Source: a virus
Reading direction: 5' to 3' (one strand)
Length of the DNA: 31,367 nucleotides
IMG/VR virus record: IMGVR_UViG_3300028571_002508
Location: 1-31,367 of that record
Shown here: positions 6,902-31,367 of the stretch, piece after piece
Layout of the letters: each line of letters starts with the position of its first letter
Numbering within the stretch: the first letter of the stretch is position 1
The notes under the pieces: model-generated
The model's input: only the letters and a program-made list of their open reading frames with translations
Databases searched by the model: none
Told to the model about the DNA's origin: nothing
Made by a program: the position numbers and the translations under genes

Positions 6902-6906
6902 GAAAA

Positions 6907-6935
6907 AAGCCCCTCGAATTGAGGGGCTTTTTTTA
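6907..6935. terminator. bidirectional intrinsic terminator
   Basis: A perfect 8-bp GC-rich stem (AGCCCCTC 6908-6915, GAGGGGCT 6921-6928) with a GAATT loop is flanked by A residues on the left and seven T residues on the right. It would terminate transcription from both sides: the plus-strand antirepressor unit and the minus-strand HEPN-like cassette, whose stop codon is at 6936. Confidence 0.88.
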
Positions 6936-7415
6936 TCATTTAAAGTGCTGAAGCGTGCTTTTGTTCAAACCTATGCAATTGATGGTGGGAGAATTGCAAT
7001 CAATATTAAGTTTGGATTTGAAATAAATTATTAGGTTGTCGAGGTGTTTGATGGCCTTTGCAAAGTGCTTGTCGTAGGTAAAAAAGGTTTCACTGGTTGC
7101 AGGCGGGTTATCGCCATCTTTCACTAGGTATCTTGAGCGACGAGAAAGGTGTTGAAGTTTGACAAAACTAATATAAGCTTCTTCTTCAATTTTTGTTGCA
7201 GATAGCTGTGTTTCGGGATTAAGCGCATTTTTTACCTGTTCATGACTACGGTATTGAAGTCCATAATTTGCTAAATGAGCATTGACTAAATGTACAGCAG
7301 TGTAAAAGCAGATTGTAACTTGCCAATCGTGGCAAGAGGCAATTTTTTGGTTTACGTTTTCTAGAAAAACTAAATTGCTATTTGCCTGGGCAATATGGTC
7401 TTTAAAAAGGGGCAC
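6936..7415 (-). CDS. HEPN-like domain protein, accessory cassette gene 2
   Basis: This 159-residue helical protein starts at a GTG 5 bases after the stop of its partner gene. The segment DWQVTICFYTAVHLVNAHLA (30-49), followed by a Tyr-Arg-Ser-His-x-x-Val stretch and then YISFVKLQHLSRRSRYLV (80-97), resembles HEPN-fold proteins of the small stand-alone type (aromatic first helix, SRRARYL-like third helix). Many HEPN proteins are RNases or RNA-binding parts of toxin-antitoxin and anti-phage systems. The classical R-x(4-6)-H catalytic motif is not evident after the SRRSRY helix, so it may be a non-catalytic member. The minus orientation, own promoter region and own terminator mark it as an independent cassette. 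Confidence 0.6.
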   Translation of the reverse strand: MPLFKDHIAQANSNLVFLENVNQKIASCHDWQVTICFYTAVHLVNAHLANYGLQYRSHEQVKNALNPETQLSATKIEEEAYISFVKLQHLSRRSRYLVKDGDNPPATSETFFTYDKHFAKAIKHLDNLIIYFKSKLNIDCNSPTINCIGLNKSTLQHFK

Positions 7416-7420
7416 AGGAA

Positions 7421-7879
7421 CTATTCAACTATGGTTTGATAATGGGCAGGAATTTTAACATTATCGCTTGCTTCCAAAATTGTTGAACTTACGCAATAGC
7501 CAGCATCAATAAATTTTGCATTAACTTTTGCTTCGCTCATAATAAGTTGATCTTCAGTTCGCTCATCGTCGTCGTTCAACTCGGCCCAGAAAAGCACTTT
7601 AGAGTCATTGTAATCCACCGCAAGTTTTCTTGGCATGTTGCCTTTTAGGTTATCAATGAATTCAATGATAATTTGAGGTACGATGGTTTCTTGGATAGAA
7701 GATTTTACATCGGCGGCAATTTTAAGTGGATTGCCAACTATCAAATTGTTGTAGAACTGAGTCTTTTTGTCATCCGCTGTCCTGGTTTCCAGTTGAAGCT
7801 GATCAACACGCAGCATGGCGATTAAATTATCAAACCAGGCTTTGTTTGTGCTAGTGTGAGGTGAAGTTTTTGTTTCCAT
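7421..7879 (-). CDS. unknown partner of HEPN-like protein, accessory cassette gene 1
   Basis: This 152-residue soluble, acidic protein is the promoter-proximal gene of the minus-strand pair. The N-terminal half is helical (AWFDNLIAMLRVDQLQLETR), and the second half alternates hydrophobic residues in a beta-rich pattern around VLFWAELNDDDERTEDQLIM. It lacks the GSx10DxD motif of MNT nucleotidyltransferases, so this is not the standard HEPN-MNT antitoxin. The 5-base spacing from the HEPN-like gene suggests co-translation and a shared complex or toxin-antitoxin relation, which is inference. Confidence 0.6.
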   Translation of the reverse strand: METKTSPHTSTNKAWFDNLIAMLRVDQLQLETRTADDKKTQFYNNLIVGNPLKIAADVKSSIQETIVPQIIIEFIDNLKGNMPRKLAVDYNDSKVLFWAELNDDDERTEDQLIMSEAKVNAKFIDAGYCVSSTILEASDNVKIPAHYQTIVE

Positions 7880-7901
7880 ATGTATTGGCCAAATAGCATC
7901 T

Positions 7902-7965
7902 ATGTTACATTTACGTTACTTAAAAGTTGCATGTTCAATACATGCACGTAATCTGTATGTAACAT
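7902..7965. promoter_or_regulatory. large symmetric operator upstream of the HEPN-like cassette
   Basis: The arms 7902-7919 and 7948-7965 are inverted copies matching at 14 of 18 positions (ATGTTACAT outer, GTTAC/GTAAT inner), centred between 7933 and 7934. A separate perfect 7-bp inverted repeat, TGCATGT (7928-7934) and ACATGCA (7940-7946), sits inside it, slightly off-centre. Such paired sites fit cooperative binding of a dimeric repressor at the promoter of the minus-strand cassette, which starts 23 bases away. No clear TAnnTTTG element was found. Confidence 0.55.
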
Positions 7966-7985
7966 TTTCCGGGGTAAATCTACGC

Positions 7986-8006
7986 TTGTAAATTCATATT
8001 TTACAA
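7986..8006. promoter_or_regulatory. inverted repeat upstream of small HTH gene
   Basis: TTGTAAA (7986-7992) and TTTACAA (8000-8006) form a perfect 7-bp inverted repeat with a 7-base spacer in a very AT-rich stretch, about 54 bases before the small helix-turn-helix gene at 8060. It is likely a second regulator site or part of that gene's promoter. Confidence 0.4.
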
Positions 8007-8059
8007 AATCATTTTGAAATTATATTTACAGATTTTTGAAATTTGCATAAAACTTGCCC

Positions 8060-8236
8060 ATGCGCCACAACGCCAATCATTTACGCAAGGTAGAAACCGC
8101 CCGAAAACAGTTTGCCAGCATGCAGGCTGAGGGTAAGTATAGGAGCCTGTTTATACTGCAAACGCTTGCTGCCCGCTACTTTGTGAGTGTGGGCACCATA
8201 GAGCGCTGGGTTTATGGCAAAGAAGCTAAGTCTTAG
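8060..8236 (+). CDS. small helix-turn-helix protein
   Basis: This 58-residue basic protein starts at the ATG at 8060; a TTG two codons earlier is also possible. Residues 30-54 (LFILQTLAARYFVSVGTIERWVYG) read as a helix-turn-helix with a conserved-looking TIERW recognition helix. It stands alone between two minus-strand blocks, behind an AT-rich, repeat-containing region. A role as a transcriptional regulator, possibly a Mor/C-like late activator or the repressor of the neighbouring cassette, is inferred from position and fold only. Confidence 0.55.
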   Translation: MRHNANHLRKVETARKQFASMQAEGKYRSLFILQTLAARYFVSVGTIERWVYGKEAKS

Positions 8237-8238
8237 CT
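8224..8238. other. convergent overlap with palindrome at two stop codons
   Basis: AGCTAAG and CTTAGCT (8224-8230 and 8232-8238) form a 7-bp palindrome around one base. The stop codons of the plus-strand helix-turn-helix gene (8234-8236) and the minus-strand gene (8233-8235) overlap inside it. There is no T-run, so it is at best a weak terminator. Confidence 0.35.
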
Positions 8239-8808
8239 CAGGTCAATAAAATAGTCATTGTTGCTTCCGGGTGCCGGTGGCTCTGGCTCTCCCTTCTCAA
8301 TTGTGAGGCTTGCATCGTCTTCGTTCAATGGCCGGTGCACATCGGCGCTACTGTGGTCGATCACTTCCACTGTGTAGCTCAATACATAAATCCAAAGATT
8401 TGTGCCTGTGGCGTATCGGCGTATGGCCAGGCTGCTGAGAGTGCCACTGCCTACATCGGCTCCATGCAATAGTGCAGCCACAGCACCTACCAGGCGAAGG
8501 TAATTAAGGGCACTGGGTTGGTCGTGGCTGCCATCAAAGCTTTCGGCCAGGCTAAAGTCGGCTACATACACATTTACCACAAACGGAAAGTTGCGGCTTA
8601 GTGCGCCCAGGTTTTGAATCTCATCGGTATTAAACTCAAAGAAAGCCGCTGGCAGGTTGAAAGGCATGTTTTCGCCTTCCTGCAGGTATTCTGTTTGTTC
8701 GGCCCATAGGTCGAAGTGTTGCAGGTTTGGCAGGCCATCGGGCAAGCTATCGGGGAGCCTGGTTTTCAGGTAGTCGGTGAGTTGGAGGTATAGTTCGTCT
8801 AAAATCAT
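8233..8808 (-). CDS. putative tail terminator / neck protein (Mu gp37-like)
   Basis: This 191-residue protein is the last gene of the minus-strand packaging operon. Its core (about residues 50-150) alternates beta strands and helices: FVVNVYVADF, a Ser-rich helix with NYLRLVGAVAALLHG, then LSSLAIRRYATGTNLWIYVLSYTVEVID. This is the layout of tail-terminator proteins that cap the tail tube and join head to tail. The Pro/Glu-rich C-terminus is likely disordered. Placement next to the gpG- and gp36-like genes agrees. The fold-level call is moderate and no exact family is claimed. Confidence 0.58.
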   Translation of the reverse strand: MILDELYLQLTDYLKTRLPDSLPDGLPNLQHFDLWAEQTEYLQEGENMPFNLPAAFFEFNTDEIQNLGALSRNFPFVVNVYVADFSLAESFDGSHDQPSALNYLRLVGAVAALLHGADVGSGTLSSLAIRRYATGTNLWIYVLSYTVEVIDHSSADVHRPLNEDDASLTIEKGEPEPPAPGSNNDYFIDLS

Positions 8809-8815
8809 GGCGTTG

Positions 8816-9418
8816 TTAGATTTCTGAGCCGGTAAATAGTTTGTTCATTTTGCGGTGGTAGATTTTCTTGATGATCTCCATCAAAGCTGCGCTGTATCCA
8901 ATAAACTGCCTTTGAGGTATTTGGGTGTTTACCTGCCTGGTGTGGGCTTTTACCATTGCTATTCCCTGGGCGGTTTTTACCACCTTTATTCTTGACTCAC
9001 CTTTGGCATTTACCTCTATGTATTTAACCTTTTTGTTGTTTGAGCGGCTCTCTACACGCCTCACGTGTGCCCTTACGCTTTGTGTGGCCTGTATGGTGCC
9101 ACCTTCGTTGTGTATTTTTGCGTATGGCACATCGCTCACCCACTTGATGTCCATGCCGGTAGTTTCTTTGCGAAGACTTCGCTTTAGCCTACCACTGCCT
9201 TTTCCTATAAGTATTTTGCGCCCGGGTGTTTTGTCGTTTTTGCGGGGCTCCCAAAACTTGAGTCGGTCGTCTAAAAAGCTTTGTCGGTCAAAGTTGGCTT
9301 TAAAGAAGTTGAGCCCTTCCACAGCTGCTTCGTCTCTGAAGCTTACAAGAGCCTTTCTTGCCTCACCTTTCCAGATGGCAAACGGAAGTTTTCGCACCCA
9401 AATGATACCCTTGCTCAT
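8816..9418 (-). CDS. virion morphogenesis protein, Mu gpG-like
   Basis: This 200-residue basic protein matches the Mu gpG / phage virion morphogenesis pattern. A helical N-terminus is followed by a loop with LIGKGSGRLKRSLR, a beta hairpin (VSDVPYAKIHNEGGTIQATQ) and a C-terminal IPQRQFIGYSAAL segment. The signature is Tyr-Ala-x-x-His-Asn-x-Gly-Gly, followed by Pro-x-Arg-x-Phe. Members act at the head-tail joining stage. I chose the ATG at 9418; a TTG at 9442 is the only earlier in-frame start. It follows the portal fusion gene by about 105 bases that hold a plus-strand RNA-like unit. Confidence 0.8.
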   Translation of the reverse strand: MSKGIIWVRKLPFAIWKGEARKALVSFRDEAAVEGLNFFKANFDRQSFLDDRLKFWEPRKNDKTPGRKILIGKGSGRLKRSLRKETTGMDIKWVSDVPYAKIHNEGGTIQATQSVRAHVRRVESRSNNKKVKYIEVNAKGESRIKVVKTAQGIAMVKAHTRQVNTQIPQRQFIGYSAALMEIIKKIYHRKMNKLFTGSEI

Positions 9419-9428
9419 AGTTTTTGCG

Positions 9429-9557
9429 TATGTTTGCAACAAGGGAAAAACATGAAACCCGTCAATTGGTTAAAACCCATCGGTGGTAGACAAGCAGTGT
9501 AAACTGTCAACATCATTTTCCCTTCAAGTGCCGGGCTCTGTTCCGGCACTTTTTTTA
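9429..9557 (+). ncRNA. small plus-strand unit with promoter element, 16-aa peptide and terminator
   Basis: Between two minus-strand genes lie, in order, a TAtgTTTG element (9429-9436, the Bacteroidota -7 consensus), a purine-rich AAGGGAAAAAC before an ATG at 9452, and a 16-codon reading frame ending at 9502. After about 23 bases a strong hairpin follows: AAGTGCCGG at 9526-9534, CCGGCACTT at 9543-9551, then eight T. A -33 TTTG at normal spacing was not found. The hairpin also encodes the end of the minus-strand portal fusion. It may be an antisense or regulatory RNA, or a peptide gene. Confidence 0.4.
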
Positions 9558-12205
9558 TGTGTTAAAATTCCTTTTCTCACCTGAAAGAGGGCATCTGGAT
9601 AATCGGCTTTATACCAGGTTAGGGCCTTTAAGTTGTCGGTAATAGCTGCGAAAGTGTCGTTGCCATAGCGCTTTAGATAAACGTGCCTAAGTTGAGACGG
9701 TGCTCCTTTGGCATTGTTTTCATTAACCCAAACCTCATCCGGATTAGCAAGAATTTCTGAAAGCAAATTTGTGGCTATGCCTTGCCTGTTCTGGCCTGAA
9801 TATTCTGCTTTGGTAAATTTTGTCTTGAGCTTTATTGGAAGCTCAATGGCTAAGTTGTGGTGGTTTTTGAGATACACTTGCCCGTTGGGTTGTTGGTTTT
9901 TCAACCACCATGCCTCGTAGTTTTTCTGACTCTCTTCGGGTAAGTTGGCCTGTAAATCGTTTTTGGGAAGCTCTGGAGGCAATCCATAATTTTTTGCTTT
10001 CAGTTTTGCGGCATTGAATTGCTTTTTCAAGTAACCCTGTCCCCAGGCAAACACTACATTGGCATCGCCCCGGTTGATGTTGAAGCCATCTTTAATCCAA
10101 CTTATATCCGGGTTTTCGTCGGTGTATGCCCGGCTTCCTTTCGCCACCTGCAGTACTTCGCTTCGGCAGCGCCAATGGTTCGGCGGGTATATCCTACCCC
10201 AAATTGGGTCGGTGGCCGGTCGCACCAATCCATTCAGGTTTAGGCAACCCTCAGTAGTGCCACCATCTACAATGGCATCAAACATCAAGTCGAACTGGTT
10301 TTTCTCAGCTTGCTGCCTCACCCAATTGCTGGCGTTTTGGCTGGTGGCCACAGCGGTGTCGTACTCCGTGCGCAGGTAGGTATTGGTTTTGCCGATCAGT
10401 TGTTTTGCCTTGCGCTCAAAGTCTGTAAAGGTTGAGCTATTGGCTGCTGCCTGGTTTAGCAGTTGCCATTCCGCCAGTGTGGCTGCACAGCTATAGCGGT
10501 TCACATTGGCTTCAAAGAGGGCGATGCGCAAGTTGTCTGGGCTCTCCAGGTCGGGCTTGGCCAGGCGTTCGCTCAGCTTGCTTTTAAACCCGTTCCAAAT
10601 TACCTGGCTTCTGGCCAACGCCACATTTGCCGGTATTTGCACTTGCTTCAGGTTTCCGTCCCACAATGCACCGTAGAGCTGGCTTAATGCCTGCTCTATT
10701 TGCTCTTCGCCTGGCACCGACTGCATGGTTGGAGCGTTGGCGTAAAAATCATCGTCGAGGTATTCGCCTGTGCATGCCCGGCAAGTGCAGCCTTGTTGAT
10801 GGGCTCCGCTGCCCGGCTGTGGCTGCGGAGCCTCATTCTTTGGGTTTGGCGGAGCCGGTTTGTTTGGCGGTGTCATAGGGGGCTTGTTGGGAGGATTAGC
10901 CGGTGTGTCCGGATCTTCGTTGGTTGGTGGCTGTATTTCCCGTTTAGCCTCAATTTGATCTTCAGGTATTCCGTAGCGTTCGGCAATGTAGGCAGGGGCA
11001 ATGTTGTAGTGTTGCAGTAGCAGGGTGTCTACAATTACCTGGTCTTTGATTGGCAGTTCCTTCTTATCGTCACGCATGAAGGTGTAGCCCTCGAGCGGGT
11101 AGCCATGTGTGACAAGCAAAGGAATGAGTTGCTCGTTTACAACGGCTTCAATGAACTTCACATCAGACCAGTAGCGCATGTCAGCCACTTCCTGATGCAC
11201 TTCGGCCTGGCTTCGGCTACTTCCATCGTCCATGGTCATGGTTTGTCCAAGTATTGCCTTGCTCACTTGTTTGTCAAGGTACAAGCAAAGCTCCATGAAA
11301 CACTTGTGTGGGTCGCCTTTGGAGTCGGCCAGGAAGTTTAGTTCCTCGCCTGGATGAAGTACTCCCCAACCGGCTGAGCCCATAGCTTGCATAATTCGGG
11401 CCAGTACTCCTTCCCGCTTTTTATCGGTACCGGCCATTTTTACCCATCTGAAGGGGATGCCAATTTTTTCGTTGTACTCTGTCCAGGCTGCAATAGCAAA
11501 CCTTTTGGCCAGAACTGCAGGTGCAATTCGCTCCAATGCTCCAAGGTCTTTCTCAGTTCCAATACTCAGGTAGTAATTGGAATCAGGAGGGTTAAGGTAG
11601 CTAAAGCCCTTCTTTGGATCATCGTCTGGCAATTTTACCCATACCCCGTACTCTGGCTTCACATGTTGCCGGGGCACAAGTTTTAGTTCCTTAATGGGCA
11701 GCACATTGGTTTTGCCCCTGTTGAGCTCAACTTGAATGGGCTTTTCGGCCATGGCTGTCAGCTCTATGAGTGAGTGGCCATAGAGGTTTTTTTCGAGTGC
11801 CCATCTTACAAAGTCTAAAAACCACTTGGCATCAAAAAGTTTGATGGCCTTTTCGTCTCGCTCCCCGTTAGGATCAATGAGCACATACTCGGTGCTTTGC
11901 ACTTCCACCACCCGGTGATCCCAGGCAGCATGCAGGTGCAGGTCGAGCATGGTGCTCCGGCAAACCTGGTAGTAAAGCTTTCGTGCCGGGTTGTCCACAT
12001 TGCGGGCAGCGTTGATGGCAGAAACCCAGTCCTTGAGTTGAACAATCCTATGGGTTTCTGTTTCGGGAACTATGCCTGTTGCCTTGCTGTGGCCAAGTGC
12101 TTCTTTGCCGTGTCGCATGGCAAATTCGTTGGTGATACGCTGATCTGTAGCCAGGCCAATGAAATAGCCTGTGAGCCGCTGTTTTATATCTTCGAGTACT
12201 GACAT
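9524..12205 (-). CDS. portal - MuF head protein - C-terminal nuclease-like fusion
   Basis: This 893-residue protein joins three parts. Residues 1 to about 425 are a Mu gp29-type (DUF935) portal, the ring through which DNA enters the head. A Pro-rich linker (425-470) and a short Cys cluster (C473, C475, C478) follow. A MuF/gpF-type minor head domain covers about 520-690, with FDAIVDGGTTEGC and NHWRCRSEV. The C-terminus (about 775-890) has a beta-rich segment with ILANPDEVW, a YLKRYGNDTF strand and an LTWY stretch, resembling PBECR-type (barnase/EndoU/RelE-like) nucleases. Mu encodes portal and gpF separately. The fusion is intact, with no frameshift. The nuclease call is by pattern only. Confidence 0.82.
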   Translation of the reverse strand: MSVLEDIKQRLTGYFIGLATDQRITNEFAMRHGKEALGHSKATGIVPETETHRIVQLKDWVSAINAARNVDNPARKLYYQVCRSTMLDLHLHAAWDHRVVEVQSTEYVLIDPNGERDEKAIKLFDAKWFLDFVRWALEKNLYGHSLIELTAMAEKPIQVELNRGKTNVLPIKELKLVPRQHVKPEYGVWVKLPDDDPKKGFSYLNPPDSNYYLSIGTEKDLGALERIAPAVLAKRFAIAAWTEYNEKIGIPFRWVKMAGTDKKREGVLARIMQAMGSAGWGVLHPGEELNFLADSKGDPHKCFMELCLYLDKQVSKAILGQTMTMDDGSSRSQAEVHQEVADMRYWSDVKFIEAVVNEQLIPLLVTHGYPLEGYTFMRDDKKELPIKDQVIVDTLLLQHYNIAPAYIAERYGIPEDQIEAKREIQPPTNEDPDTPANPPNKPPMTPPNKPAPPNPKNEAPQPQPGSGAHQQGCTCRACTGEYLDDDFYANAPTMQSVPGEEQIEQALSQLYGALWDGNLKQVQIPANVALARSQVIWNGFKSKLSERLAKPDLESPDNLRIALFEANVNRYSCAATLAEWQLLNQAAANSSTFTDFERKAKQLIGKTNTYLRTEYDTAVATSQNASNWVRQQAEKNQFDLMFDAIVDGGTTEGCLNLNGLVRPATDPIWGRIYPPNHWRCRSEVLQVAKGSRAYTDENPDISWIKDGFNINRGDANVVFAWGQGYLKKQFNAAKLKAKNYGLPPELPKNDLQANLPEESQKNYEAWWLKNQQPNGQVYLKNHHNLAIELPIKLKTKFTKAEYSGQNRQGIATNLLSEILANPDEVWVNENNAKGAPSQLRHVYLKRYGNDTFAAITDNLKALTWYKADYPDALFQVRKGILTHKKSAGTEPGT
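9526..9557 (+). terminator. plus-strand intrinsic terminator inside 3' end of portal fusion gene
   Basis: A 9-bp perfect stem with GC-rich core and an 8-base loop is followed by a run of eight T on the plus strand. The T-run corresponds to Lys codons of the minus-strand gene, so the terminator works against plus-strand (antisense) transcripts, not against the operon. Confidence 0.72.
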
Positions 12206-12262
12206 ACCATTTATTGATTAACGCCGCTTGTGCGGCCATTTAAAGCGAGGTTCAAACGGTTT

Positions 12263-12862
12263 TTAATACCTGTGTTGAATGGGAGGGTTGCTTCCCCACA
12301 GTACATCGTCGCCGGTCTCTTCAATCTTCCTTGGAAAGTCTGGAGTTACGTTTGAGTCTTTTACATCTATCAACCAGTCTTTGGCCTGGTTGTATAGGTC
12401 TATCCAAAAACTGGGTATCCGTACCGGGTTTACATGCCTATGCAGGTAAAACACCGTTATGTTGGTTATTTGCATTACCAGGTTTTGGTTTCTGGGATCG
12501 TGCTCTACCCAGTACTCACTGTCTTCGTGGCCCGGCATTAACTCAGGGCTTGGGTTGTCTGGGTCGGGGCTTGGTGGCACTTCTGCTTTGGCAGCATATA
12601 TTTTGCCTTCAAAATAACAGTAGTCCGTGTATTGGCCTTCCAGGTCGGGGCCTGTGTAGGCAAATAGCGGGTTGTGATCTTTGATTACAAGGAAAATCAA
12701 CTCCAGGTTGAAGCGATTGGCCAGGTAACCCTTTACAAACGATACCGCTGCTGCTTCCTTTTTTGATAGATGGTTGGCTGCTTGTCCATCAAGGAGCTGT
12801 TGTAGGTATTGTGGTTTTATGGCGCCTTCAATGTCGGCTTGGGTGAGAAAGTTGTAAATCAT
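12263..12862 (-). CDS. head-tail adaptor, Mu gp36-like (DUF1320)
   Basis: This 199-residue protein begins with a FLTQADIEGAIKPQYLQQLLDG segment and continues with helices containing VSFVKGYLANRFNLE. It ends with VNPVRIPSFWIDLYNQAKDWL, the helix typical of the gp36/DUF1320 connector family. These proteins form a ring below the portal that closes the DNA channel and docks the tail. An insert around residues 88-115, rich in Pro and Asp, makes it longer than many relatives. It lies between the terminase and portal genes in the minus-strand operon. Confidence 0.75.
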   Translation of the reverse strand: MIYNFLTQADIEGAIKPQYLQQLLDGQAANHLSKKEAAAVSFVKGYLANRFNLELIFLVIKDHNPLFAYTGPDLEGQYTDYCYFEGKIYAAKAEVPPSPDPDNPSPELMPGHEDSEYWVEHDPRNQNLVMQITNITVFYLHRHVNPVRIPSFWIDLYNQAKDWLIDVKDSNVTPDFPRKIEETGDDVLWGSNPPIQHRY

Positions 12863-12873
12863 TGGTTTGAGGT

Positions 12874-14409
12874 TTAGTAACCGTATTTTTTACTTGGGTT
12901 TTGCCCAAAGACTGGGTCGTGGTTAGATGTTACCTGTTGCGCCTGTAGCATGGCCACTGCTTCGGTCAGCGCATCCGGAAAGTCGTCTTTGCCGCTGTAG
13001 CCTGGCTCAATGCCTTTTAGTTGGTGAAGGCCTCGCTGCAAGTCCACATTATCTTTTTCGTCTATGCTGAACTTAATGCTTTTGATTTGGAAGGCAGGCA
13101 ACATTTGAACTATGCGACTGTATTTGTTTTGCCCTCTTCCAGGCCTTTCGGTTTTCGAGATTGGCAAATAGCTACCCAGGTCTTTTTCTACCTCTTGCTT
13201 GATGATGGAAAGGGCATCGTTCCAAAACTGGCTTTCCATGTACCATTCAATCATCACCGTTTTGGGCATGCGGTTGTTGATTGCATGCATCCAACGGAAA
13301 GCGGTGTCGGGAGTGCAATTGGCACAAAACACTTTGAGTACATGTATTTCCATACCCAAAAGCCCGGCAATCACTATGGCATTGGTGTCGGCAGTGGGTG
13401 AGGCAGAGTAGGCAACATCCCAGTAACCAATAACCCTGGAGTAAGCGTCGAGCCTGCGCACTTTTTCGAACAGGATCATATCGTCGGTAAAAATCTTACC
13501 TTCAATTCCTGCTATGCCCCGGTACTCCTGGTTGAACGAAATCCAACCCATCACATCCAATTGCAGTTGGAGGTACTTTTTGGTATAGCCCCATACCGGG
13601 TTCAAGTGCTCGTCGCATGCCTCTTGAATGATGCTCGTAAAACCTTTGGTTGCAATCAACTGGGTGGTAATGGTGTATTCACCTATGATGTTGTTGGTTA
13701 CCCTGAACCAAGCCCTCTCCTTGTCGAAGCATGGCATTAGTGCCTCTTTTACCCACTTGATTCGCTTATTGATTTGGATGGGGTTTTGAACTTCGTCGGT
13801 TTCGTCAACATCGTCCATGTTGATGTATCTTGGCCGGTGTGGGCCGACCCTGGCTCCCCTGGGCGATTGTCCCTTGCCAAGCGCAAAAGCTGTGAGGCCG
13901 GTCTTGGTTTGAAAGTTACCCTCTTCCCAGGTGCCGTGTTGGTACATTTCCCCAAAATAGTGTTGCAGCTGTTGGTTGCCTTTGCATTCGGCTTGCAGAT
14001 CTGCAAGTAGTCGCTTGGCAGAGTCCTTGTTGGCACCAATGAGCAACATTACAAAGTGGTCTTCCTTGTGCACCAGGTGCAACCAAAGGGGAATCATGAT
14101 GTTGAAGATCACCGATTTTGCCAGGCCCCTACCCCAGGCAACCACCCTGTAGCTGTGTTTGTGCTTCAGACAGTGGTTGGCTTCGTAAATATGAAAGTCG
14201 GCCAGAGGGTACTTGTAGTAGTGCGGGAAGCATTCCTGGACAAAGAAGTTGAAGTCGGTTTTGAACCTTGCTTTAACCTTTTCTCTTTCCTCCGGTGTTT
14301 GATTGGGGTCTACATGGCTATGCTCCTCAATTACCTTGAGCAGGGAAAGGTAGTGTTCCAGGGTTTTTTTCTCCTGGCTTTTGCTTTGCTTTTGCTTATG
14401 ATAAGCCAT
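12874..14409 (-). CDS. terminase large subunit
   Basis: This 511-residue packaging motor has both expected domains. The N-terminal ATPase carries Walker A WGRGLAKSV (92-100), an adenine-side Trp-Gly, and Walker B YINMDDVDE (195-203). The C-terminal RNase H-like nuclease has Asp in GYWDVAY (about 331) and an acidic KDDFPDALTEA (474-484). It pumps DNA into the prohead through the portal and cuts it. It follows the small terminase with a 14-base overlap. The fold agrees with Mu gp28-type terminases; direct comparison would be needed for subfamily. The gene is intact. Confidence 0.9.
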   Translation of the reverse strand: MAYHKQKQSKSQEKKTLEHYLSLLKVIEEHSHVDPNQTPEEREKVKARFKTDFNFFVQECFPHYYKYPLADFHIYEANHCLKHKHSYRVVAWGRGLAKSVIFNIMIPLWLHLVHKEDHFVMLLIGANKDSAKRLLADLQAECKGNQQLQHYFGEMYQHGTWEEGNFQTKTGLTAFALGKGQSPRGARVGPHRPRYINMDDVDETDEVQNPIQINKRIKWVKEALMPCFDKERAWFRVTNNIIGEYTITTQLIATKGFTSIIQEACDEHLNPVWGYTKKYLQLQLDVMGWISFNQEYRGIAGIEGKIFTDDMILFEKVRRLDAYSRVIGYWDVAYSASPTADTNAIVIAGLLGMEIHVLKVFCANCTPDTAFRWMHAINNRMPKTVMIEWYMESQFWNDALSIIKQEVEKDLGSYLPISKTERPGRGQNKYSRIVQMLPAFQIKSIKFSIDEKDNVDLQRGLHQLKGIEPGYSGKDDFPDALTEAVAMLQAQQVTSNHDPVFGQNPSKKYGY

Positions 14410-14836
14410 TCGACTTGTCCACTAAAAATTCTCTCTGTTGCTCTGCCAGTAGCCTTCTGAGTCTTGGGTCTTCTACCGTGCGCAGAAACTCTTCCATCAC
14501 CTGGATGTATGCGCTCAATGGTATTGAGTGCTCCATTTTGTCTTTGCTGTTCACCAGCTTTACCAGGGCGTCGGTTTCCTTGGTAATTGAATTGTGTTCA
14601 TCCTGCAGTTTTTCGATGATGTCGAGCTGCTTTTGTATCGCCTCTTCAAACTTTTTGATGAGCGATTGTGTGCGGGTAGCGTTCGCCAATTCGAGGTTTT
14701 CCCACTTTTCTTCTTCTGCCCAGCGGCCAATAGTATGCTCGGTAACTCCTACGAGATTAGCTATTTCTTTGTTCGACCTGCCGGACAAGAAGTACTGAAA
14801 TGCAAGGGCCTTTTCGGCATTCTTTTGTTTTCCCAT
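14396..14836 (-). CDS. terminase small subunit-like, Mu gp27-type HTH protein
   Basis: This 146-residue protein starts at the ATG at 14836. An in-frame ATG at 14947 would add 37 residues, but those codons would read through the 38-bp palindrome, so the shorter form is preferred. A helix-turn-helix near residues 18-40 (KEIANLVGVTEHTIGRWAEE) precedes a long helical region (about 45-125) that could form a coiled coil. This is the layout of DNA-recognition small terminases such as the DUF1804/gp27 group. It is the first gene of the minus-strand operon and overlaps the large terminase gene by 14 bases. Confidence 0.75.
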   Translation of the reverse strand: MGKQKNAEKALAFQYFLSGRSNKEIANLVGVTEHTIGRWAEEEKWENLELANATRTQSLIKKFEEAIQKQLDIIEKLQDEHNSITKETDALVKLVNSKDKMEHSIPLSAYIQVMEEFLRTVEDPRLRRLLAEQQREFLVDKSNGLS

Positions 14837-14889
14837 CACTCCTTTTTTTTCCAAAGGTGTGGCCGGTGCCTGGTTTGGTTTTTTATGTG

Positions 14890-14927
14890 TTTTCAAGATG
14901 TGTATGCCCGCATACACATCTTGAAAA
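14890..14927. repeat. 38-bp near-perfect palindrome between divergent late operons
   Basis: Two perfect 18-bp arms (14890-14907 and 14910-14927) flank a CC centre. The arms begin with TTTT and end with AAAA, so each strand reads as hairpin plus T-rich edge. It sits midway in the 162-base interval between the small terminase gene (minus) and the protease/scaffold gene (plus). Possible roles are an operator for a late activator, a hairpin-type bidirectional terminator, or a structure in both 5' leaders. No TAnnTTTG promoter is clear in this interval. Confidence 0.7.
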
Positions 14928-14998
14928 ACGACTTGCAGGCTTTCCATTATGCCTCTCCAAGTTTGTGGCCACTGTAGTTTTCAGCTGTTGATAAGCCT

Positions 14999-30572: not shown

Positions 30573-31367
30573 ATGTCAAATGTTCTCAAGACCCCCATTA
30601 GTTACTATGGAGGCAAGCAAAATCTCGTTTCAAAAATTTTACCACTAATCCCAGAGCATGAGCTCTACGCAGAGATTTTCTGTGGCGGTGCAGCTGTTTT
30701 TTTCTCAAAACCCCAAAGCGGTGTTGAGGTCCTCAATGACACCAATTCCGAGTTGATCAACTTTTACCAGGTAGCTCAGCGTGATTTCCACCAATTGGAA
30801 GTGCTCATCAAAATCACACTTCATAGCCGAAGGCTGCACAAGGATGCCAAGGTTATTTATGAGAACCCGCACATGTTCGACCCAGTGAAGCGTGCTTGGG
30901 CTATTTGGGTGCTCAGTACCCAATCATTCAGTGCCATGCTCGACGGCACTTGGGGTTACGATGTCAGCAAAAACACGACATCGAAAAAGATTCATAATAA
31001 ACGTGATAGCTTCAGTGAGGAAATAGCGATCAGGCTTCAAAATGTCCAAATCGAGTGTACGGATGCATTACGGATACTCAATAGTAGAGATAAGTCAACA
31101 TCCTTTTTTTACGTCGACCCTCCTTACTTTAACTCCGATTGTGGCCACTATGATGGATACACATTGGAAGACTTTACTATGCTTTTAAGTCGGCTTGAAA
31201 AGCTAGAAGGAAAGTTTTTGCTCAGTAGTTATGACAGCCCAATTTTGCAAGAATTTGTAAAGAGGAATAACTGGAGCCAGCAATACTATCAGCAAACGGT
31301 CAGCGTAAACCCAAAAGGAAAGCGAAAACAAAAGCTAGAAGTAATGACTGGAAATTACCAGTTTTAA
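30573..31367 (+). CDS. dam: DNA adenine methylase, D12 class (Dam-like)
   Basis: This 264-residue protein has the D12-class N6-adenine methylase motifs in order: YYGGK (11-15), YAEIFCGGAAVFF (32-44, SAM-binding motif I), and catalytic DPPY (182-185, in FFYVDPPYF). The C-terminal domain carries a Leu-Ser-Ser-Tyr stretch typical of the family. It probably methylates phage and host DNA to evade restriction or regulate lysis, in a role comparable to the Mu mom gene but by a different chemistry. The target sequence cannot be read from it. It ends exactly at the window end. Confidence 0.87.
   Translation: MSNVLKTPISYYGGKQNLVSKILPLIPEHELYAEIFCGGAAVFFSKPQSGVEVLNDTNSELINFYQVAQRDFHQLEVLIKITLHSRRLHKDAKVIYENPHMFDPVKRAWAIWVLSTQSFSAMLDGTWGYDVSKNTTSKKIHNKRDSFSEEIAIRLQNVQIECTDALRILNSRDKSTSFFYVDPPYFNSDCGHYDGYTLEDFTMLLSRLEKLEGKFLLSSYDSPILQEFVKRNNWSQQYYQQTVSVNPKGKRKQKLEVMTGNYQF

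Follow-up and report, generated by a model that had tools for sequence, protein, structure and literature searches.

Genomic setting of the cassette

The window analysed here is a virus record of 31,367 nt, which carries a Mu-like phage gene set and whose gene order resembles that of the Winogradskyella phage Peternella_1 (Winoviridae). The cassette under study lies within this phage among the following features.

In the window: MuB-like AAA protein and Mu Gam, Mu-like phage genes
In the window: Mu portal/F fusion, DUF2586 sheath-like protein and D12 adenine methylase, Mu-like phage genes
5980-6708: AntA-type antirepressor, in the Mu-like phage window
6903-6933, no strand assigned: bidirectional terminator-like hairpin between convergent genes, with perfect 13-bp arms and A/T runs
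6936-7415, minus strand: HEPN-T (PF05168-like) gene, 159 aa, GTG start, proposed toxin (homology, Pfam match of relatives, AlphaFold plus Foldseek, signature)
7421-7879, minus strand: partner gene, 152 aa, ATG start, proposed antitoxin (no family match; homologues upstream of HEPN)
7880-8059, no strand assigned: AT-rich region upstream of the cassette, 28.9% GC, presumed promoter region (composition, repeats)

The two minus-strand genes for proteins of 152 and 159 residues that an earlier note had read from this DNA were confirmed as open reading frames five bases apart, with 7421-7879 lying first and 6936-7415 downstream. The host of the cassette is a Mu-like (transposable), Winoviridae-like phage of Bacteroidota. 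The cassette is bounded on one side by the terminator at 6903-6933 and on the other by a small ORF on the plus strand (8060-8236), and the first head gene to its right, 8233-8808 (minus), shows 27% identity (E 2e-15) to a tail-completion gene of Peternella_1. The same note had called the cassette a self-contained, oppositely oriented unit, which holds with respect to the early genes on the left, running opposite to it, but not with respect to the right side, where six head and packaging genes (8233-14947) all lie on the minus strand like the cassette itself, nor for the terminator, which probably belongs to the phage backbone. Peternella_1 lacks the cassette and has other genes in the slot at that border, while in the Elizabethkingia phage TCUEAP3 the corresponding slot holds a DUF4468 gene. 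Moreover, the cassette is AT-rich, with a GC content of 38.1% versus a window mean of 46.3% and a GC3 of 0.35-0.37 versus 0.49-0.59. Since related phages differ at the slot and the GC and GC3 of the cassette are low, it appears to be foreign cargo occupying a variable slot that separates the early genes from the head-gene block.

Several other genes of the window deserve a description. The small ORF at 8060-8236 (plus), which borders the head genes, is HTH-like and weakly matched a 60-aa ORF of Peternella_1 (E 7e-4 in one comparison); an ORF of TCUEAP3 (L080:10759-11127) is placed similarly, and the small ORF may encode a small regulator conserved among such phages. At 9524-12205 (minus), a single 893-aa ORF fuses the Mu portal (PF06074) with the Mu F-like head protein (PF04233) and ends in a C-terminal PBECR2 nuclease-like domain (PF18810, E 2e-7), whereas in Peternella_1 the portal and head proteins are on separate ORFs. 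At the right record end, 30573-31367 (plus) encodes a D12-class adenine methyltransferase (PF02086, E 5e-24); Peternella_1 has a methyltransferase of this class at the corresponding end, and TCUEAP3 a Mom-like modification gene.

Flanking repeats and promoter elements

The hairpin downstream of the cassette, put forward earlier as its strong bidirectional terminator, consists of a perfect 13-bp repeat at 6903-6933. A similar hairpin, AAAAAGCCTC-TTAATT-GAGGCTTTTT, is found in the same place in the cassette-free Peternella_1, just before the 60-aa plus-strand ORF, and for this reason the hairpin is, judging from the comparison of the two sequences, probably part of the phage backbone and serves the cassette as well.

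Upstream of the cassette, the earlier note had described a large inverted repeat as the cassette's own symmetric operator. The repeat itself exists, with arms at 7902-7919 and 7948-7965 (14 of 18 positions matching per arm, with a 9-bp perfect core) and an inner 7-bp inverted repeat at 7928-7934 and 7940-7946. However, when the intergenic stretch was shuffled with its dinucleotides preserved, 53% of the shuffles reached the score of the 14/18 arms and 19% contained a repeat equalling the 9-bp perfect core, and the relatives showed no such repeat in their upstream regions. We therefore regard the operator as unsupported. As for promoters, 9 of 22 partners are preceded by a Bacteroidota-type TAnnTTTG element, versus 2.6 expected, an excess in the sequences which hints that the pairs in general have their own promoters; the window copy has no exact element of this type upstream.

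The downstream gene encodes a HEPN protein

Profile searches against Pfam, PHROGs, NCBIfam and PADLOC gave no direct match for the product of 6936-7415, and for the pair as a whole they returned only chance-level matches below the cut-off, such as PAZ (E 0.0024) and RNPP_C (E 0.045). Nor did a PDB sequence search with the window proteins yield a match, and plasmid records held no relative of either protein. By tblastn, the product of 6936-7415 has relatives in two Microcystis phages (E 8e-18) and in a Thermus phage, where the matching protein carries a HEPN annotation (E 9e-9). Wider relatives were found in Bacteroidota, and the family falls into three clades, A (which includes the window), B and C, linked at 97-99% probability by profile-profile comparison with hhalign. 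One member each of clades B and C passed the Pfam HEPN cut-off. The homologues in L024 (24.4 bits) and L030 (26.0) lie above this threshold of 22 bits, while the other homologues scored below it.

An AlphaFold model built from five sequences (pLDDT 81.7, pTM 0.81) displayed an all-helical HEPN fold, and its four best PDB matches by Foldseek, 1wol, 1ufb, 2hsb and 3o10, are all HEPN or HEPN-like proteins (TM 0.61-0.70 by target, with modest E-values of 0.03-0.2). Because these E-values are modest, the fold call relies on sequence and structure pointing the same way; by homology and by predicted structure, we assign the product of 6936-7415 to the HEPN proteins of the PF05168/HEPN-T type. The HEPN identity, which had been proposed from residue pattern, is thus borne out by the relatives that pass the Pfam cut-off and by the model's top matches, and the lack of a HEPN fold in structure prediction, which the earlier note had named as the finding that would speak against it, did not arise.

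The conserved residues are D30, W31, T34, Y38, H42, H58, R95 and Y96, and the signature [ND]Wx[ILV][TI]xx[FY]Yx3H together with [AS]RY is present in 21 of 21 members. H42 is invariant in all 21 and H58 is conserved among the closer members. The canonical RNase motif Rx4-6H is not conserved among the 21 and the class I HepT motif RX4HXY is absent from the members, which carry a tyrosine directly after the conserved arginine, (A/S)RY. In HEPN-T and AbiV members that lack the canonical histidine, the 2013 HEPN survey describes another conserved histidine that could take its role (PMC3710099).

The partner is not a recognisable nucleotidyltransferase

No family in Pfam, PHROGs, NCBIfam or PADLOC was found for the upstream gene. 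Its AlphaFold model (pLDDT 81.1, pTM 0.60) predicts three N-terminal helices followed by strand-strand-helix-strand-strand, and Foldseek searches of the PDB and viral libraries with this model gave no match at E 1e-3. Homologues of the partner lie directly 5' of HEPN in a Microcystis phage, in the virus contigs L007, L016 and L033, and in chromosomal loci; the loci with such a homologue include L006 (35% identity, E 3e-26) and L004. A profile of eight clade-A partners matched the Microcystis partner (E 5e-16) and the L012 partner (E 1e-13). A similar-sized gene takes the partner position in clades B and C of HEPN, and homology of the partners between clades A, B and C was not demonstrable by profile comparison. 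Tsatsa_34 of the Thermus phage Tsatsa occupies the partner position and has no sequence similarity to the partner.

We also considered the partner as an MNT nucleotidyltransferase, as in standard HEPN/MNT pairs. When its profile was compared with 18 MNTs taken from these genomes, the probability was only 0.1-0.2%, which does not support such an identity. Together with the motif GSx10DxD, found in 0 of 22 partners, this agrees with the earlier statement that the two genes are not the standard HEPN-MNT pair. Separately, a clade-B partner in a phage-like setting (L014:1022-1498) came near Pfam Imm30 (PF15565), an immunity protein family, with E 3.6e-5 and a score of 24.2 bits, short of the cut-off of 27; this near-match at the sequence level is possibly a lead to the partner fold.

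The two genes form a fixed, mobile module

In 21 of 21 loci, the full set from phages, virus contigs and chromosomes in which both genes are readable, the gene immediately preceding HEPN on the same strand is a partner of 126-177 codons, at a spacing of -47 to +7 nt (L021 ends within its HEPN gene). This count includes the Thermus phage, where the partner is assigned by its position and size, and the spacings may shift by a few codons, since some start codons were chosen by hand. A comparable arrangement was seen for only 12 of 182 (~7%) other neighbouring genes in the same stretches. A pair that never co-occurs, which the earlier note had named as a refuting result, was not what the neighbourhood survey found.

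The distances of HEPN and partner also co-vary, with r 0.80 in clade A and r 0.87 in clade C (Mantel p 0.003), and with r 0.79 (p 0.05) in clade B; among the seven closest clade-A members alone, the co-divergence was weak (r 0.36, p 0.06). In clade A, mean identity is 0.26 for the partner versus 0.34 for HEPN, so that the partner diverges faster.

The neighbours of the pair vary by locus and include an integrase, a late-gene block and tRNA genes, as well as, in chromosomes read by eye, transposase, prophage-like or housekeeping genes. A HEPN match was obtained in 6 of 395 genomes of a phylum sample with a narrow profile (one with an internal stop, left out) and in 13 of 395 genomes of a class sample with a wider profile, and several scans of viral contigs found nothing. 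At L016:4947-5921, the late genes run on the other strand from the pair, which adjoins a 1404-aa ORF resembling a tape measure protein. We conclude that HEPN and partner are a fixed two-gene module moving through unrelated phages and bacterial chromosomes; the earlier idea of a cargo module stands, with the upstream-downstream order of the pair constant in 21 of 21 loci amid varying surroundings.

Discussion

The reading that we favour, and consider probable, is that the cassette is a mobile toxin-antitoxin-like module carried as phage cargo, composed of a HEPN-T toxin and a non-MNT antitoxin of a new family. From the gene anatomy we infer such a function, and with it HEPN toxicity, its neutralisation, RNase activity and a benefit against phages. 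HEPN is taken as the toxin and the partner as a binding antitoxin because the partner comes first, because the two genes are closely coupled and diverge together while their context changes, and because in HEPN/MNT dyads the upstream gene encodes the antitoxin (PMC3710099; PMC7641770). The HEPN fold, the foreign GC3 and the variable slot in related phages also favour this reading. Weighing against it are the unconserved Rx4-6H motif, the lack of demonstrable partner homology between the clades by profile comparison, the weak co-divergence among the seven closest clade-A members and the missing exact promoter element upstream of the window copy. According to this proposal, the first gene would yield the 152-aa antitoxin and the closely spaced second gene the HEPN-T toxin; the two proteins would bind, and the partner would mask the conserved HEPN surface formed by H42, H58, R95 and Y96. 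Loss or displacement of the partner, for instance when another phage infects or the prophage is lost, would free HEPN, which may then cleave or bind RNA and arrest growth. Since 22 of 22 partners are without GSx10DxD, neutralisation is expected to occur via binding, not via AMPylation as in HepT/MntA.

Among described systems, the class II HEPN/MNT pair comes closest. As in HEPN/MNT (HepT/MntA, type VII toxin-antitoxin) of class II, there are two genes with the partner upstream and a PF05168-type HEPN, which here too is without RX4H and keeps the conserved tyrosine. In class II, however, the MNTs retain GSx10DxD beside HEPNs of this kind (PMC7641770), whereas the present partners lack it in 22 of 22 cases, have no detectable MNT homology and measure 126-177 aa versus about 100 aa. 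Because the partner fails the GSx10DxD feature, we do not file the module as HEPN/MNT. A non-MNT partner upstream of HEPN is also found in the predicted toxin-antitoxin dyad of MAE_18760 with a ParA/Soj-like ATPase (PMC3710099), but the present partner matches no ATPase family and has a different predicted layout. The abortive infection HEPN AbiV is likewise without Rx4-6H and has an alternative conserved histidine, although no operon partner was given for it in the 2013 survey (PMC3710099), and the structural match was weak (9bj7, E 3.7). By analogy, RnlA/RnlB may serve as a working model: the RNase LS HEPN toxin is restrained by an unstable, upstream-encoded non-MNT inhibitor and freed on phage infection (PMC3710099), though neither window protein matches the PADLOC, Pfam or NCBIfam models of such systems.

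A possibility to which we give somewhat less than even weight is a two-component prophage defence, acting by superinfection exclusion or abortive infection, in which the partner senses an incoming phage product and activates the HEPN effector. The pair occupies sites typical of lysogeny cargo beside integrases and also a site in a late-gene block, its partner evolves faster than HEPN (clade A mean identity as above), and HEPN effectors are common in antiphage systems (PMC3710099; Tha, PMC11087260). Yet PADLOC had no match for the window pair and only weak, unshared matches for the relatives, and the chromosomal loci, read by eye, had no consistent defence-island neighbours. Antiphage action of the pair as prophage cargo is plausible, and as it does not exclude a toxin-antitoxin function, our confidences in the two readings overlap. 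We think it unlikely that the pair is a degenerate HEPN/MNT, whose nucleotidyltransferase-fold antitoxin lost the GS and DxD motifs and neutralises by binding alone. The predicted strand-strand-helix-strand-strand order resembles the MNT core, the HEPN belongs to the type seen in class II HEPN/MNT, with a conserved tyrosine and without RX4H, and the second Foldseek match of the partner is the putative archaeal nucleotidyltransferase 2rff (probability 0.84); this match, however, has a TM-score of 0.34/0.43 and E 0.06 and stands among many unrelated weak ones, and the low profile similarity to the 18 MNTs speaks against such an origin. Finally, co-orientation with the head genes at 8233-14947 could make the pair the tail of a minus-strand head operon, with an ordinary late structural or regulatory role, but this is highly improbable, given that the pair stands alone in chromosomes and in very different phage positions, that its composition is foreign to the phage, and that other genes fill the slot in related phages.

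Returning to the toxin-antitoxin-like module, no description of this HEPN/partner pair was found in the open-access journal literature searched. We tentatively suggest, short of calling it probable, that it is a new type of HEPN toxin-antitoxin pair, in which a partner of unrecognised fold neutralises a motif-less toxin by binding it. The partners would comprise three or more deeply diverged clades, and phages would have spread the pair across Bacteroidota as well as into cyanobacterial phages and possibly those of Thermus. PF05168 recognises some of the HEPN relatives; otherwise the pair is covered by no Pfam, PHROGs, NCBIfam or PADLOC model, and existing scans would therefore miss it. With a HEPN lacking the catalytic motif and a partner lacking the nucleotidyltransferase motif, the module offers a test of the toxicity of motif-less HEPNs and of the way they are restrained without AMPylation.
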